Shown here piece by piece: positions 30,308 through 54,868 of a stretch of 64,000 bases of DNA. Origin of the DNA: Ulva prolifera (Eukaryota; Chlorophyta; Ulvophyceae; Ulvales; Ulvaceae). A program made the position numbers and the translations under genes. The stretch lies in NCBI GenBank assembly GCA_023078555.1, contig CM041200.1:4926936-4990935 (forward strand), written 5' to 3'. Below the pieces are notes generated by a model. It ran no database searches, was not told the DNA's origin, and saw only the letters and a list, made by a program, of their open reading frames with translations. Every line of letters starts with the position of its first letter. The first letter of the stretch is position 1.

Positions 30308-32726
30308 ATGGAGTACCCCGAAGAGGTCGATGTTGTCGTTCTGGGGACGGGATTCGTGCAAGCTGTCATCGCATGGTAAGCTGTCTGCATTGCAGCTCCA
30401 TACAGCTCCAGTTGCTCCAACCCGATCACGCCTGTGGCTGTTGCCCACTTGGCCCCGACAGGTCGATGTGTGTGCAGCGCTGCTGCGCGGCGAGGCAAAA
30501 GCCTTTTCATTGTGGACGTGAATGAAGAATATGGCGAATCTGGAGCAAGTCTGGGTTGGAGCGAGTTCCACGCATGGGGTCAGAAGCATGCGAGTGCGCT
30601 CGCTGACACCACCACAGCACATCCCGATGCCGCATCAGGACCTTCTGAAGACTTGCCGCCCAGTGTCAGTGCCGTCCCAGTGCGGCAGGCCCCCAGCGGT
30701 ATCAAAGCACTACAATTCGAAGTGCATGATGGGGCCCATGACGTGGCCCCACGTGGATTCTGTATCGACCTTACCCACCAGGCATGCCCCAATCAACATC
30801 TTCAAATGCTGATGCCCTCAAAGCCGTTGTGCCCGTCATCTGCTGCCCATGAGTGATCGGGCGCTCGCGTACAGTATGTCATGGCCCAATCCCGTACATC
30901 TCATTCTGAGCCCCTGTATGTGGCTGTGGCATACAATTTACAGAGCACTATCAGACTCATCGCACGTACCCGCCCCTGGCACAGCTCACAGCTATGGATC
31001 ATGCACCACAATTTCAGTCTTTGGTGACAACAGTTGACAGCCACTGCTGAGCCTGCAGGCTTTCGAGAGCACTGGGCCGTGTGTCCAAGCCGTCCGCGAC
31101 ATCGGTCTGCACCATTCCCTTGAGTTTGCTGCCGTCTCGTCTGTCTACACATGGCATGAGGGCCGCCTGTACACGACCCCCTCCAGCAAAGCGGACGTGC
31201 ATGCTGCCCCGTGGCTGTCTCTTGCAGAGAAGCGCACTCTCAGCCTCTTCCTCGCGAATGCGCAACTCGCTGCCGCAGGCGGCTCCTCCGATTTGTTCCA
31301 AGCCTCGCACTTCAAGGCTGCCCTCGAGGACTTTGGCCTGCATGCCTCAGTGCAGGTATGCCGACACATGGAGCCTGCTGCGGGTGGACCACGGCCGCCT
31401 GGCTGTGCCGGACCAGTGCAGCGAATAGCCTCGCACAAAAATTGCTGCACAGTCGCTCTAACCCCTGCCGCTGAAGCTGCATTCTTGCGTGGCTGTCCGT
31501 ACAGTTGCTACCAGCAGCAGGATCGTCCTCGAATCCGCCTCACAAGTCTGTGCATCCGCACCAGTGCCTCAGAGCTGCACTGGGCCCGCTCACTTCAGCA
31601 GGCACCCGATTCGTTACATGGCACCCACTCACACAGCGCTGATGGTGGGGCTTGCATGCAGGAAGGGCTCATCTACTCCGTGTTCCAAGCTGAGAGCAAA
31701 GTCTCACGAGACACCCCTCTGGCCGGAAAAGACGTCCTGCAAGCGATGATCAAGTACATGTCTCAGAGTGGGACGTACGTGGCCGGCCAGGCGCCCTACA
31801 TCGAGAGCCGCTACGGCTGCGGTGATGTGGCACAGGCTTTCATCCGCCAGGCGTGCGTCTATGGCGGTGCCGTGGCGCTGGGCACCCCCATTGCAGACAT
31901 CCTCGTCTCGGACGGAGCTGCATACGGCGTGCGCACTGCATCGGGCCACACGATCCGCTGCTCCACTCTCTTCGCCAGCCCGGCGTACCTGCGCGGCTTT
32001 GGCACAGCGGATTCGGCCGCACAGGCTGCAGGCGCCGCGGTGGAGAGCGATGCGGGAGCTGTGGAGGGGGTCAACGTGGCAGATGCGGAGGCGGATGAGG
32101 AAGCGATGGCGGAGGCAGAGGAGGCGGCAGCGCGCGGTGGGGCCATGGCCCGGGGGATCGTCGTGCTGCGCCGTGCTGTGCTGCCGCACCTGACGAACTG
32201 CCAGATTGTGTTCCCGCCGGCGGCATGCGGCAACGAGCGCGCCGTGACGGTGTGGCACTGCCACCACACCCTCGCCGTGTGCCCGGCGCCGCTCGTGGTG
32301 CTCCACGTGTCCATGCCGCACGCCGCCGGCGAGGCATCGCTGCAGGCGCTGCGCGCGTGTGTTGACGCGCTGCTCAAGACCCCGGATGACTCAGCTGGTC
32401 AGGCTGATGAAGCCTCGGCTGGACAGGCGGAGGTGGGCGAGAGTGATGGTGGCAGTGAACAGGACCCCATCCTGGTGCAGTGCTACTATGTGCAGGACCT
32501 GAGTGGTGGTGATGGCCTGAAGCTGTGCAGAGGGGCTCTCTGCTGCCCGAGCCCTGGCCGTGACTGGACACTGGACAAGAGCCTGTTGCTTGGTGAGCGC
32601 CTCTTCAAGAAGGCGTTCCCTGACGATGTGTTTCTGACGAAGACGCCGGCTGTGGCGGCGCCTGCTGCAGAGGAAGAGGACATTGATCCTCTGGATGCGG
32701 CACTGAAGGACCTGGGCCTGGATTAG
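30308..32726 (+). CDS. REP: Rab escort protein (REP/CHM, component A of Rab geranylgeranyltransferase)
   Basis: Exon 1 (30308-30375) encodes MEYPEEVDVVVLGTGFVQAV, the FAD-like GxGxx start shared by REP and GDI. It is spliced in phase to 30478 onwards, giving ARRGKSLFIVDVNEEYGESG with the ASLGWSEF block. Later blocks are RGFCIDL, FESTGPCVQAVRDIGLHHSL plus EF (from about 31044), LSLAEKRTLSLFLANAQ, YVAGQAPYIESRYGCGDVAQ then AFIRQACVYGGAVALG, and a C-terminal ERLFKKAFPDDVFL. These follow the REP order rather than GDI (insert after conserved region 1, longer C-terminus). REP presents newly made Rab GTPases to the prenyltransferase and delivers them to membranes. The ATG lies in a strong context (GCCGCCATGG). 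The last about 150 bases are duplicated at 40061-40208. Confidence 0.88.
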
Positions 32727-40208: not shown

Positions 40209-42862
40209 CAGGTCCATAGGCAGTGCCGCGAATTGATTCCTTTCCCACACACTCATACTGGATGATTACATACATCGTCGACGCCTCCAATATTCCCAGG
40301 TTGTACATTTATCACCTCTTTCCGCAGTGTATTTTGGCACGCTAGATCTCGCACTCGCAAAACCTCTCGACAGAAATGGCCTGTGCCACAGTGACCCAGT
40401 CTGACAAACGCTTCGCTGGTGTTGGTGAAATGCAACTTGAACTATGAACGCCATGCAAACTTCCTCCGCGTGTAGCTACGTTGTTGGAACGTTGGAACCA
40501 TGACCGATCACTCGTGTGCATAACAGCACAAAGTCGTTTCGGCTCACTTCAGATTGCTGATGTTACAGATTGCTCCTGGCTACACCAGTACACACAAGAA
40601 GGGCAGCTGCTTGAGCATCAAACTTGCAACGCAGCGTTATCTGTGTTTCCAGCTCGCCTCGGCTGACCCCGTCACAGATACTATGCGTGGTGCACCGCCA
40701 TCAGACTCAACGATAGCAGCGTGTTCAACATGAATACCATGGCTGCAACCATGACACCCGAACGGACCACGGGACGAGACGCTCCGAAAACAAACACAGA
40801 ATCTAACCCGCCTGCTGCGGCCTGCACCGGACCGCTGCGCAGCGGCCACGGCAGAGCGCGCACAGACGTGACGAGCGGTATGTACACGGCCCGGGCAGAG
40901 CGGCTGCCGCGGCCCCCGGCTGCCGCCCCGCGCCCTGCACCAACCCCTATCCCGGCCTCCAGATCCGGGAATGAGTCATCCTGCTTTTTATCATCCATCA
41001 ACAGCACCGAGCTCTCCTCTGCTAGTGCAGGACCGGACTGTGCATGTGCAGCACGCAGACGCTCGCTGCCACGGATCTGGGACTGCAGCTGCGACTGCAG
41101 CGACTCATTCGTCTGCTGCAGCTGCGCGACCTGCTGTTGCAGCTGCGCCAGCTGCGCCGCGGCGGCCTGGCTCGGGGACCCGGCGCGCGGCGCCGCGGCC
41201 GCGAGCTGACCCCGCAGCCGCTCCGCCTCCTGCTGCAGCGCGGCGCGCTCCGCGCGCAGCCCCTGCCCCTCCGCCGCCACTGTTGCCAGCTGCTGCCGCG
41301 CCTGCTCCAGCTGCACCTGCGCCTGCCGCGCCGCCGCCGACGCGGCCGCATGCATGCCGCCCTCCTCACGGGCTGGCGCCGCCTCCAGCCGCTGCTGCGC
41401 CTTCGCCAGCTGCTCCTGCAGAGTGCGCGCCTGCTGCGCGAGCTCCCCCTCCCGCCGCCGGGCCTGCTCCACCTCCGCCGCGAGCTGCTCTTTGTCCCCG
41501 AGCACCTTCTCCAGCTCCGGCACGATCGCCTCGAGCTCTGTCTGCAGCCCGGCTCGGTCCTGCTCCGCTGCGTGAAGCGCAGCGCGCAGCTCTGCTGCCT
41601 CTGCACCGGCACTGCGCTGCGCCTCTGCCTCCCGCAGCTGCACTCTAGCGGCCTCCAGCTCCCGCTCCAGGCCGGCCGCCGCCTTCGCCGCCTGCTGCCC
41701 GAGCATCTCCGCCTTGGCCGCGCGGCTGCGTAGACCATCTGCCGTCTCCCGCACCCCGTCCGCCTCCGCCTCCGCGGCCGCCTGGGCTTCCGCAGCAGCT
41801 TCCAGCTGCGCGGTCAGCTCCTCATGCACATGCGCCCACTCCTGCTCGCGCTCCCGCAGCATTTCCGTCTCCTCCGCCGCCTCCCGCATCCCCTCGATCT
41901 GTGCGCTCATCTGCTGGTGTACAGCCTGCCACTCCGCCTCACGCGCATCCCGCGCCCGCTCCGCTGCCGCGGCAGCCTCCTCCAGCTTCTGTACCCTCGC
42001 CGTGAGCTCCCCCCGTACGCCCTCCAGCCGCTCTGTGTGCTCACGATGCGTCTCTGCAGACGCAGCCAGCTCCCCCCGCAGCTGCTCCGCCTCTGCCGCC
42101 GCCACACCGGCGCGGTCAGATGCCTCCCGCAACTCCTCCAGTTCATCCCGTGCCGCCCGCAGCTGCGCCTGCAGCTCCCACTTCTCATCATCCCCCTCGT
42201 TGCCCTTCCCCTCTGCCTCCTGTCGGGCGGTCTCGGCGGCCGCCTCCGCCTCCCGCGCCGCAGCCTGCGCAGCCTCCAGCTCCCCCGCCAGCGTCTGCCG
42301 CTCGGCGTTTGCGTCGCGCAACGCGGTCTCAAGCGCACCTGCCTGCTCCATAGCTTCATCACGCGCCCGTTGTGCTGCCAGTGCCATCGCCTCTACCTGC
42401 TCCAGCCGCCCCTCCGCCCCACTGCGGCCCTCCTCCAGCCCTGCAAGCCGCCCCTCCGCCAGCCGCCGGGCCTCCTCTGACATCTCCAGTCGCTCCTGTG
42501 CCCCATCCCGCGCCTCCTCCACAGCCGCCAGATCCTGAAGTACCTCCTGCAGCCTACCACGAAGCTCCCCCGCCTCCGCGAGCTCCCCCTTCACGCCCTC
42601 CAGTTCCTCCTCCAGCGCCTGCGCGGCCGCCTCCATCTCCCCGACGCGCACCGCATCGCGGCCTGCGTCCTGTGCTGCACGCTGCAGGCTCTCCATCTCC
42701 CCATGCAGTGCCTCCTCTCGTGCGGCCCCCTCTCGCAGTGCCACCTGCAGGCCTTCCAGCTCTCCTGCCAGCTCCGCCTTCTGGCCTTCTGCCGCGTCCA
42801 GCAACGCCTTGACCGCCTCCAGCTCGGCCTGCAGCCCCGCAACGCCGCTGCTCGCGCTCGCC
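40061..42862. repeat. Segmental duplication copy B (undeleted copy)
   Basis: Partner of 32579-33952. It holds a REP 3'-end fragment, the 3' spacer and the 3' half of the intact golgin-like gene. It has all the blocks missing from copy A. Confidence 0.9.
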
Positions 42863-45242
42863 TCAGCCTGCGACAGAGCTGCACGTGCCTCCTCCAGCCG
42901 TTCCCCGACCGCCTGCGCCTCCTTTGCGGCGCGGCCAGCCTCCTCCTCCCATGCCCGCGCCTCGTCCTGCGCCTGCTTCAGCTCCGGCAGCAGCTCCTCC
43001 AGCTCCTCCTGTAGAGCCGCATTCTGCCCCCTCAGCCCCTCGACTTCCTCCGACACGTCCCCCACACCCTGAGCCTCCGCCCGGGCCGCCTCCAGGTCCG
43101 CTTGAAGTGCCACGTTCCGCTCCCGCATCTCATCGAGCTGCGCCGAGAGGTCCCCCGCGGCCTCCGCCTCACCCCTCGCAGCCGCTAGCTCCTCCTTCAT
43201 CGCCTGCAGCCGTTCAAACGCTGCCTCGACGTCCGCGGCCGCCGCCTCCTTCTCTGCCGCAGCCTCCTCCACCTCTGCCTGAGCCTGCGCGGTGATGGCC
43301 GCCTCACGCTGCGCCGCCGCCTCCAGCTCTCCCTCCAGCTCCGCTATCCGCTGACCCAGCTGCTCCTGCTCTTTAGCAGCTGCCGCCACATCGGCCGCTG
43401 CCTCGCCACGCACGCGCTCGACCTCCTCCCGCGCGCTGTCCTTTGCTTCAGCTACCTCTGACTCGAGGTCCTCTACACGCTGCGCGAGCTCCTGTGCTGC
43501 GTGCGCGGCCTGCGTGGCCTCCTCCTCCAGCACCGCCTGCCCGGCGCGCAGCCGTTCCGCGTCTTCGGCAGCCCCAGCGAGCGCCTGGAGCTGCTCATGC
43601 AGCGCCGCGAGCTCCTCTTTTGCACCCTCCCCTTGGGCCAGGAGGCCCTGCAGGCGCTGGACATCGGCCCGCAGCATCTCTGACTCCTCTGTGGCTGTGC
43701 GTGCGTCGGCCTGGGCTTGTGCCACAGAGTCGCGGGCTTGCTCAGCAGATACAAGAGCGGCGTCGCGCTCCTCGCGTGCAGCGGCCGCATCTGCTTGTAA
43801 CTGCGCATTCTGTGCTGCTCCTTCTGTCACTGCAGCCTCGAGGTCCTGGACCTGTACATCAAACGCTTGCTTGTGTTAGACGCGCATACTTTGGTTTGCA
43901 AAAGGTGCAGAGGTTCGCAGAATGGCCTTCTGTTCCCTAAGCAGCAATCGGAATTCTTCCAAGTACGCGAGGGGACGAGCATGCTGTGAAGGAAGTCACT
44001 GTCCGAAGAGTAATTGGCAGCAGGAAAGGCACCTTTGCAGCAGACGCAGTGTGGGCTTCATCCTCTAGAATCCGGATGCGCTCCATCAACGCATCTTGTT
44101 CATCCTTGTGGCTGGAGTGCAGCTCTGCCGTTTGCATAGCGTGTGCCTCTTGGGCAGTCTCCATGGCGTCTCGTAGGTCATCACGGTCCCGCTCTGCAGC
44201 CTCCAGTTTCTCCTGCAGCTGGTCGACAGAGGCTGCACTGGCGGCAATTGCCTGATCGCGTGCAGAAAGTGCTTCCGCCAGCTGCTGTTGCAACAAGTCA
44301 GCTGTGGCCACAGATTCTGAGAGCTGTTGCTGTGCAGCTTGCAAGTCAGATCCCAGGCGTCTGCACTCAGCATCTGCTGCAGATGTCTGATTCTGCATCG
44401 ATCCTGCAAGCCTGGTTTCTGCATGCTCCGCTCGCTGCAGGGCCGCTTCACGATCATCAACGGCACTTTGCTTTGCAGCAGATGCCGATGACAATTCAAG
44501 TTCCCACTCTTGCTTGGCTCGGGCGTGTTCTGATCTGATTGTGGAAAGCTGCTCTTTGGATGCCTCGAGCTGTGCATGCACCGCCATCTGGCTAGACTCA
44601 ACGAGGGCTAACTGAGCACGCAATTGCCCGTTCTCCTGCTTGAGCTGCCCGCTTACATGTCTTGCTTCTGAACCACCGTCCTCGACACCAGGCAGCGCAG
44701 GTGCAAGGAAACCTGCCTCGTGTTCTGCACCCGCGCCCGTTGTTATCAGACCTGTTACAGCAGAAGCCGGAACTACTGACTGCACAGGTGCTAGTGACGA
44801 CTGCGCTGGCGCAGCCCCGACTGCTTGTGCCGCGGGAGCGGAACGGTGCACAATGGTGCTCTCAGCGGTCGCTGCCGGCGCATCCGGGAGAGCCGGATCC
44901 CTGTTTTCAACACCAGTATCTTCATCAGGAGAGGTGTTTGGAACTTCTGGGGTTACATCGGCATGTGAGCTGCTTGCCGGAGCCCGAGATGATGGCTTGG
45001 GCTTGCCCGCAAGCTTTTTAGCCCTGAATTCCTCAAGCTGCAAAGTGATAGCACGTTCACGTGTACCAGGGTCGCGGGAGCCGTGGTTCCAGCCTTCACC
45101 GCTTGAGCACAAATGCAACGTGAAAATTGGGGAGCAAGCGGTACAGCGCGGCAGGTTGATCGACATCAAGAGCTCTTAGACATACCTTCTGCCTCCCTTT
45201 AGACCGCAGCGCTTGTTTCTTTTGCTGCTCTGTTTGCACCAT
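40681..45242 (-). CDS. Tail-anchored long coiled-coil protein, golgin/TNO1-like
   Basis: The main exon (43851-40681, 1057 codons) is almost pure coiled coil, rich in Glu, Ala, Gln and Leu (for example LEAVKALLDAAEGQKAELAG). It ends with a hydrophobic segment close to the stop (SGVMVAAMVFMLNTLLSLSL), typical of a C-terminal tail anchor. It is joined in phase to 44033 and up to about 45100, which adds a charged N-terminus (ITLQLEEFRAKKLAGK), a disordered Pro/Ser/Thr region and more coiled coil. A possible first exon at 45242-45186 (MVQTEQQKKQALRSKGRQK, donor GTATGT) did not join in phase with the acceptors I could see. An ATG at 45166 in the second exon is the alternative start. Tail-anchored coiled-coil proteins of this kind tether vesicles at the Golgi or TGN. 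The specific family is not certain because coiled coils converge. Confidence 0.75.
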
Positions 45243-53155: not shown

Positions 53156-54868
53156 TCAGCAGGCATGTGCAGGTGTCTCAAAGTGGCGATCAGGCAGTGG
53201 GCAGAGCAGAAACGCACTGTTACGGCGGCCCTGGCTACCCGAGCGGCGAGCAGAGTAGTCCACGGAGCGGCGCTTGCGGACTGCGGCGCTCTCCAGGTTG
53301 TTGCGGGGGGCAGGGCTGGGGCTGCGGGAGGGGGTGGGGGAGGAGAAGCTGCTGGAGCGGCGGCCCTCAGAGCTGCCGCCGCGGCCGCCGGAGCGGCGGG
53401 CGGCGTAGTCCACGGAGCGGCGCTTGAGCACGGCCTGGCTGACTAGGCGGTTTGCGGGCGCCGGGGAGGAGGAGCGCTGTGGGGAGGAGTAGTTGCTGCT
53501 GGAGGACGCGCGGCGGGCGGGGGCGCCGGAGTTGCGGTTCTGCGCCTCACGGCCACCGGAGCGGCGGGCATCGTAGCTCACGGAGCGGCGCTTGAGGACA
53601 GCCTGGCTGACGAGGCGGTTCGCAGGCGCGGGGGAGGTGGAGCGCTGGGGGGAAGAATAGTTGCTGCTGGAGGACGCGCGGCGGGGGGGGCTGGAGGAAG
53701 AGCGGCCCTGCGCCTCACGGCCACCGGAGCGGCGAGCGGCGTAGTCCACGGAGCGACGCTTGAGGACAGCCTGGCTCACGAGGCGGTTCGCCGGGGCGGG
53801 GGAGGAGGAGCGGGAAGGTGCCTCGTAGGAGCTGGAGCTCGAAGTCGGGGAGTATCCACTGCCACGGCGGCGGTTGTTCTCCTCCTCTCCGCCAGAGCGG
53901 CGGGAAGAGTAGTCGACTGACGCACGGCGCTGGGGGGTCGGGCGGCTGTTGCTGGAGACGCCAGAGCTGCGGCGCTGAGCCTCACGGCCACCAGACCGGC
54001 GAGCAGCATAGTCTGCACAACATAACAAGACCGTAAGTATCTGTTTATGTCGACCACTTGGTTTGCAGGATGCTGGGATGAGTGCAGAGGACGGTATATC
54101 CTGCCTTCCTGTTGTGCACATAGCCAGTGTTCAGGCTTCACCGCACAAATATGACGAATCATGCACGACTTATCTGAAACTTCGGTCTGCAAGTGCGCGA
54201 CGTCACAGCTACTGCGCTCGTCATTGCAACTTGTGGCGTCATCGTGTGCGTGTGCCACCTGGCGACACAAAGTCACTGAAGAGATGCCAGAGGTAACACA
54301 GCAAACAGGTATGCTAGCAATGTCCTAGAACTGTGCCACGCTTGATGAGAGAGAGCCCGGATGCCTAAAAGGGGCGCCAACTCGTTACGCGAAAGCACGT
54401 GCTCGACCGAATAACCGGAGATGGCTGGATACTCGGACGGCAGACAACAACATATGTATGCCACCGTAGCGTAATACTAGCTATTCTCCTAACGGCGTGC
54501 CTCTGGTTCTGGGCAGAGGCACTCATATGGCCGGGTGCTGGCGGGCTGTTGAGACGTGCAGAACGTCTACTACGCGGCGATGGCAGCCGGAAACTCGCCG
54601 CAGCGCGCAGCATTTGTTCCATAATAGATGCTCTAATAGTAATATGGATGCGCCGGGGCTTCAGCCGTGCCGTGCACATCGGAGCGCCCACCAGCGACCG
54701 AAAAAACAGGGTTCAGACGATGGAAGCGCTACACCCGAAGACTCGGCCCTGGAAACAGCGATTCAATCAAGCAATAGACTCAGGTGATATCTTACCTGGC
54801 TGGGGTCGGCGTGCGTTGAGCACAACCGCCCGCCGGGCGCTGGCAACAGGGGCACGCAGCGACAGCAT
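53156..54868 (-). CDS. Candidate plastid-targeted, disordered 56-residue-repeat protein (EPYC1-like linker architecture)
   Basis: Two exons close in phase. Exon 1 (54868-54796) encodes a 24-residue presequence, MLSLRAPVASARRAVV followed by LNARRPQP, with no acidic residues, as in algal chloroplast transit peptides. Its intron has GTAAG/CAG borders. Exon 2 (54012-53156) completes a 309-aa protein built from repeats. Three consecutive units are exactly 56 residues. Each starts SV(D/S)Y, has ARRSGG or SRRSGG, passes through a Ser/Arg/Pro/Ala-rich spacer with (S)SPAPA, and ends ANRLVSQAVLKRR. Partial or diverged units (31, 50 and about 15 residues) flank them. The protein is strongly basic and predicted to be disordered, apart from the short helix-prone ANRLVSQAVLKRR motif. 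Transit peptide, repeat length, SSSPAPA spacers and one helix per repeat are the layout of the Chlamydomonas Rubisco linker EPYC1, but the helix sequence differs. The C-terminal tail after GRRNS could be intron read-through. Function is an inference from architecture. Confidence 0.7.
53281..53990. repeat. 168-bp coding tandem repeats
   Basis: DNA repeats underlying the 56-residue protein units. For example, the block GGAGCGGCGCTTGAG recurs at intervals of 168 bases. The copies are similar enough to suggest recent duplication or homogenisation. Confidence 0.85.

Follow-up and report, generated by a model that had tools for sequence, protein, structure and literature searches.

Does the repeat gene at this locus encode a linker that gathers Rubisco into the pyrenoid of a green seaweed? 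Pyrenoid formation outside a few studied species is largely open. As far as the available portions of two reports go, the known linkers have no sequence in common and have been found species by species, and no Ulva linker is named (PMC11570498; PMC13159521). The pyrenoids of Ulva prolifera are described as starch-sheathed in the accessible text of PMC8911146. A first-pass annotation of the window, the whole stretch of 64,000 nucleotides analyzed, had read the gene as a chloroplast scaffold of the EPYC1 type, built from disordered repeats that each end in a helix-prone motif. The gene model, the repeats, the relatives of the protein and the other genes that carry its motif are considered here in turn.

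Structure of the window gene

The two exons of the window gene (gene A; Table 1), once joined, give a single frame that runs to one stop and encodes 309 amino acids. The two-exon, in-phase model drawn before thus holds, its coordinates included, with a frame unbroken across a GT-AG intron, and the splice is independently supported by a phase-1 intron at the same codon in three other motif genes of the genome. The 3' end is putative; a third exon for the tail YTLAQVKSALA of some relatives was not found by similarity between 49.5 and 53.26 kb (best score 24, against maxima of 16 to 32 in 20 shuffles). In the genome searched, an 88.9-Mb assembly of 44 contigs, the window DNA matched only itself and has no second copy.

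Table 1. Features of the window gene (gene A) and positions of the other motif genes. Positions without a contig name (C1 to C5) are those of the window; a slash in the intron row marks an exon boundary.
Feature	Position	Strand	Description
Exon 1	54796..54868	-	73 nt; transit-peptide-like leader MLSLRAPVASARRAVVLNARRPQP; last base opens the Asp codon of motif copy 1
Intron	54013..54795	-	Phase 1, GT-AG; splits Asp codon; CAG/GTAAG ... TTGTGCAG/AC
Exon 2	53156..54012	-	857 nt; six motif copies, Ser/Arg/Pro/Ala-rich spacers, stop codon
Motif copy 1	53966..54012	-	Residues 25-40; at probable mature N-terminus
Motif copy 2	53867..53929	-	Residues 53-73
Motif copy 3	53699..53761	-	Residues 109-129
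Motif copy 4	53531..53593	-	Residues 165-185
Motif copy 5	53363..53425	-	Residues 221-241
Motif copy 6	53213..53275	-	Residues 271-291; end diverged
ANRLVSQAVLKRR	53753..53791, 53585-53623, 53417-53455	-	One per 56-residue unit, first unit given first
Gene B	C5:4110130-4112781	+	Longer repeat protein; counterpart of P0009; 10 motif units in part read
Gene C	C2:11323673-11327019	-	Counterpart of P0011; leader, 7 motif units in exons read, PGRL1-like end
Gene D	about C3:4036100-4039720	-	Two open frames, 920 residues (8 motif units) and 225 residues (2 motif units)
Gene E	C1, leader near 10199770, exons from 10201707	+	One motif copy directly after leader
Leader ends			A ...VLNA RRPQP DY; B ...RCNA RHRRP DY; C ...AVRA GRRTS DY; E ...VAAA KRKKP DY

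The protein contains 23% Ser, 18% Arg and no Trp, with a net charge of +44 and a pI of 12.0. Its leader is of the transit-peptide type, judged by inspection, and is laid out as in the RbcX-family and PGRL1-like proteins described below. The string Y-x-x-R-R occurs six times, the residue before Tyr (Asp, once Ser) being 25, 58, 114, 170, 226 and 276, so that successive copies lie 33, 56, 56, 56 and 50 residues apart. Four successive copies spaced by exactly 56 residues bear out the repeat length read earlier. At this lag the protein has 103 self-identities, compared with a best of 52 when 200 shuffled versions were scanned over lags 20 to 149, and TRF finds a period of 168 bp (2.6 copies, score 657) under the frame. 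Of the three 56-residue units previously described, the spacing stands and the uniformity does not: units 1 and 2 differ at 8 of 56 positions, whereas unit 3, owing to its diverged spacer, departs from them at 27 and 30 positions. The stretch ANRLVSQAVLKRR begins at residues 99, 155 and 211.

AlphaFold2 gave the exon 2 protein a mean pLDDT of 45.5, with 222 of 284 residues below 50, from an alignment of only 8 rows. This agrees with the earlier description of the repeats as disordered. The accessible text of PMC11570498 gives features of pyrenoid linkers, named FLIPPer, with which the window protein agrees in its repeat spacing (33 to 56 residues, within a range of 20 to 120) and, in this low-depth model, in being largely disordered; the repeating structured (helical) elements of the same list are not seen in it. 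Indeed, the model from the 8-row alignment contains no helix of four or more residues, the region of ANRLVSQAVLKRR included, contrary to the helix-prone character first assigned to that stretch.

Elsewhere in the window, an open frame of 1064 residues (40681-43875, minus strand) occupies the most GC-rich and strongly skewed stretch (42-44 kb: GC 0.69, GC skew -0.29) and has no Pfam match at 0.001. The frame at 31038-32726 (plus strand) encodes a partial GDP dissociation inhibitor (E 3.6e-16 to Pfam GDI).

The conserved motif

A protein search with the window protein returned at least 7 relatives (E 1.9e-25 to 5.7e-5), and a profile search at least 12 matches, which include the 7 relatives and two proteins of Ulva mutabilis; both counts are lower bounds, as only the candidates with most words in common (7989 and 7990) were scored. 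The prediction that a similarity search would miss this protein therefore failed. The host, taken at first for a trebouxiophyte, appears to be an ulvophyte, Ulva itself or a close ally, with two Ulva mutabilis proteins in the family. These two, P0009 (UM004_0280.1) and P0011 (UM016_0026.1) in EukProt, have counterparts in this genome that are 65-68% and 65-83% identical by segment, respectively.

What is conserved in the family is a motif some 21 residues long, [RK][RK][RK]SVDY[AS][AS]RRSGGxxENxRR. In 110 units tabulated from 24 sequences or exon pieces (P0015 contributed none), a set that includes orthologues and near-duplicates and for which the search pattern itself prescribes Tyr and the two Arg, Asp precedes Tyr in 78%, and Ser and Gly follow the two Arg in 71% and 76%. 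The first-pass annotation had placed the conserved unit end at ANRLVSQAVLKRR; what the relatives keep is instead RRSVDYAARRSGG, and DPRVARRRS replaces ANRLVSQAVLKRR in many of them. Among the sequences compared, ANRLVSQAVL occurs in the window protein only, with DPRVA at that place in many relatives.

Between this genome and Ulva mutabilis, the motifs have diverged less than the spacers. For gene B, 168 of 209 motif positions are identical with 1 gap column, compared with 176 of 312 and 114 gap columns in the spacers; for gene C, the figures are 99 of 120 with 2 gap columns and 149 of 223 with 25. This points to constraint on the motif, which by itself names no partner. Pfam has no repeat family above cutoff for the motif proteins, NCBIfam has nothing above cutoff for the two Ulva proteins, and the PDB, searched by sequence or profile, contains no match to the repeats of the window protein and its relatives. 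The motif strings and the two Ulva gene names were not found in the open-licence literature, outside which most subscription papers lie.

A conserved tail like RRRLRQEYTLAQVKSALA stands at or near the end of P0002, P0004, P0005, P0006, P0007, P0008, P0009 and P0010, is followed in P0009 and P0010 by DYG.HAM.S.E, and is absent from the window gene. This tail may form an interaction domain of its own in the longer candidate linker.

Other genes with the motif

The motif occurs in at least five genes of this genome, A to E. Queries of 30 and 23 motif residues revealed no sixth locus, and the gene count is a lower bound.

Gene C ends in two hydrophobic segments, as in a two-transmembrane protein, and a zinc-ribbon pattern, CPDCG...CDNC. 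Aligned over 157 aa (E 6e-30), the corresponding end of P0011 shares 36% identity with the product of C1:3186083-3186559(-) (locus L025 3075-3863 (-)). We take this product to be PGRL1 and use it as the in-genome reference for the end of gene C; a profile-library search gave it no name. PGRL1 is a thylakoid protein with its N-terminus in the stroma. MITH1 was considered as an analogue of gene C and set aside, since the accessible literature gives it no detectable Rubisco-binding motif.

The product of gene D, seen as open frames, is large and alanine-rich, and Ala/Glu-rich at its start. A likeness to SAGA, which would entail a starch-binding CBM20 domain, was rejected: none of the 8 CBM20 matches in the genome lies on the contig of gene D, where introns could hide one. 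Upstream of gene D on C3, a frame of 728 residues (L028 7716-9899 (-)) resembles by eye a retrotransposon reverse transcriptase.

In each of the four genes whose leader was located (A, B, C and E), the first motif has its Asp codon divided by a phase-1 intron, with an Ala six positions ahead of this Asp; P0009, P0011, P0013 and P0014 have the same Ala spacing. Common descent of the leader-plus-motif exon is the simplest reading of these sequences. Were the leaders cleaved after the conserved Ala, where inspection would place the site, every mature protein would start with the motif. As limited candidate lists yielded no Ulva mutabilis orthologue of the window gene, the chief linker may be gene B, with the window gene a short form particular to its lineage.

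Gene E and the RbcX family

RbcX is a Rubisco assembly chaperone. Taken as a single sequence, the spliced product of gene E has RbcX as its best Pfam match (E 0.0015; 19.3 bits, below the cutoff of 27), and phmmer against the PDB gave a chance lysozyme match (0.26) followed by RbcX (0.55), neither of them significant. A homologue search returned 86 proteins, 26 of them with precomputed PF02341, including named proteins of Coccomyxa, Trebouxia and Ostreobium. When a profile built from 22 of the 86, 15 of which had PF02341 beforehand, was run against the PDB, all nine matches at E up to 1 were RbcX (some named ORF134), the best being AtRbcX2 at 2e-5. The AlphaFold2 model of the homologue P0013 has a mean pLDDT of 67.4, with at least 88 in most blocks of residues 101 to 230. 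Foldseek matched this model to 122 structures at E up to 10 and to none at 0.001; the best had an E value of 2.1e-3 and a TM-score on target of 0.66, and the best 50 of the 122 are, without exception, entries for RbcX or chains of RbcX size from complexes of RbcX with Rubisco. When the genome was scanned plainly with PF02341, a sole locus was listed, C1:5645515, and not gene E. By profile and modeled fold, and with a weak single-sequence signal, the product of gene E is RbcX-like.

Gene E shares profile and fold with RbcX, but differs in having the motif DYASRRSG at the N-terminus, after the leader, which is absent from the named RbcX relatives of Coccomyxa, Trebouxia and Ostreobium. The longer form DY.SRR.G.QEEN.RRR is present in 8 of the 86 homologues, among them P0014, which has precomputed PF02341, and DYASRR alone in two more (P0049 and P0054); the other 76, some perhaps fragments, were unmatched. 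The pattern [DN]Y[ASPG][SA]RR is absent from the RbcS loci and the other RbcX locus of the genome (five loci of 3.1 kb). A microbial-rhodopsin exon (Pfam Bac_rhodopsin, E 2.1e-18; L026 8615-9106, C1 near 10205600) lies a few kb downstream of gene E.

Comparison with known Rubisco linkers

The Rubisco-binding motif of the EPYC1 type is Trp-centered, W[+]xx[hydrophobic][-], and the Chlamydomonas motif was reportedly defined by Meyer in 2020. Since the window protein has no Trp, it has no motif of this form. In Chlamydomonas, one Rubisco-binding motif is common to EPYC1, SAGA1 and the kinase KEY1, according to the accessible text of PMC11649565 and PMC13086578. The present system is alike in its disordered candidate repeat linker, the repeat spacing being about 60 residues in EPYC1, and in placing one motif on candidate linker, membrane-associated and Rubisco-related proteins; here five genes have it, one of them RbcX-like. 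It is unlike in the motif itself, which has no Trp and no predicted helix, and in that the chaperone is RbcX-like and the anchor PGRL1-like. A further parallel is Chlamydomonas activase, for which a construct of transit peptide plus 23 residues holds the Rubisco-binding motif (PMC9133816, available portion); in gene E, too, the motif directly follows the leader.

CsLinker of Chlorella sorokiniana condenses Ulva Rubisco, less efficiently than its own, and the residues to which it binds are retained in Ulva Rubisco, as described in the accessible part of PMC11570498 (Barrett et al.). It is, like the window protein, a basic, repeat-rich, disordered green-algal protein. In contrast with the window motif, it touches RbcL through helices of about 10 residues, via Phe173, Arg176 and Lys177 (same source). 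V-L-K-R-R in the window motif has a spacing like that of F-L-x-R-K, a likeness between patterns and not between full sequences, which was left unscored because basic residues match trivially in the window protein. PYCO1 of diatoms and CsoS2 of alpha-carboxysomes, known here from partial descriptions, are multivalent Rubisco linkers with short repeated stickers.

Proposed role of the motif

We think that the motif is a sticker for Rubisco or the pyrenoid and that the window gene encodes a short multivalent linker. This is the best account of the motif, because the layout is that of Chlamydomonas and the family has RbcX-family and PGRL1-like members. The EPYC1-type scaffold first proposed thus gains circumstantial support, since both an RbcX-family chaperone and a PGRL1-like membrane domain are fused to the motif. 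We give a probability of roughly 0.55 to the full reading, in which the window gene encodes a plastid-imported disordered linker and the motif is both a sticker for Rubisco, or another core component of the pyrenoid matrix, and a pyrenoid address across the lineage. The shared leader exon and intron, the constraint on the motif, the pyrenoids of Ulva and the condensation of Ulva Rubisco by CsLinker also speak for this reading. What counts against it is the lack of Trp and, unlike in EPYC1 and CsLinker, of a predicted helix at the motif, the weak single-sequence signal of RbcX in gene E, the missing motif in the named RbcX relatives, the RbcS loci and the other RbcX locus, the window gene having no orthologue among the Ulva mutabilis candidates compared, and the affinity that Arg/Ser-rich repeats could have for other polyanions.

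The window protein would enter the plastid as a disordered, strongly basic linker, and its six motif copies would act as stickers, presumably for Rubisco or else for another core component of the matrix. Joined by Ser/Pro/Ala-rich spacers of about 35 residues, they would allow one chain to bridge several holoenzymes and help to condense them. Within the lineage the motif would be a general pyrenoid address. Several copies would make linkers (genes A and B); several copies on a PGRL1-like anchor with two transmembrane segments would tether the matrix to thylakoids (gene C); and a single copy at the predicted mature N-terminus would bring the RbcX-family chaperone to the matrix (gene E).

The motif could instead be a homotypic or adaptor tag that does not bind Rubisco, recognized by another matrix protein or serving as an RRxS-type kinase docking or phosphorylation site, with the window protein a pyrenoid or stromal client. 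All units are basic and carry a Ser ahead of DY, single-copy tags occur (gene E), and the longer gene B, with its clear Ulva counterpart, may be the real scaffold; taken alone, however, such a tag leaves the motif on an RbcX-family chaperone unexplained, and we hold it to be unlikely.

Tic62 and TROL are membrane organizers for FNR. A thylakoid scaffold, with the motif as part of a PGRL1-related complex and the repeat proteins as organizers of cyclic electron flow or of another stromal enzyme at the membrane, would account for the PGRL1-like ends of gene C and P0011. It is improbable, given that the RbcX-like gene E has no link to electron flow, and that the open frame seen of the PGRL1-like product itself has no motif. 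We see just as little likelihood in an Arg/Ser-rich plastid protein that binds nucleic acid, in the nucleoid or as RNA: repeats of such charge and Arg content could bind other polyanions, but the motif is specific, containing Asp, Tyr, Gly and Glu-Asn, and has changed less than the basic spacers, and the fused domains are not nucleic-acid binding.

In Chlamydomonas, unstructured sequence past the cleavage site helps import (PMC9133816, available portion), and the first motif directly follows the leader in 4 of 4 genes. That the motif merely aids chloroplast import is nonetheless very improbable, considering that the window protein has internal copies as far as residue 276 and that genes B to D hold many more. 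A spurious open frame over a GC-rich minisatellite, for which the 168-bp tandem repeat would speak, is hardly credible in view of motif relatives in other species and loci and of three further genes spliced at the same codon.

We see an even chance that Ulva-type green seaweeds use the exon-borne sticker DYxSRRSG as a universal pyrenoid address, which together with its leader exon was copied onto at least two multivalent linkers, a chaperone of the RbcX family and a thylakoid tether derived from PGRL1, as a Rubisco-organizing system that evolved independently of EPYC1 and CsLinker and with binding that is perhaps helix-free. With its motif also on an RbcX-family chaperone and a membrane protein of this alga, the window gene may be one piece of an unreported Rubisco-gathering pyrenoid system of green seaweeds. 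If so, ulvophyte seaweeds would gain at once a linker, a tether to the membrane and a tag on a chaperone, all recognizable by one motif, and the family would be a clear case of a condensate address that spread together with its leader exon.
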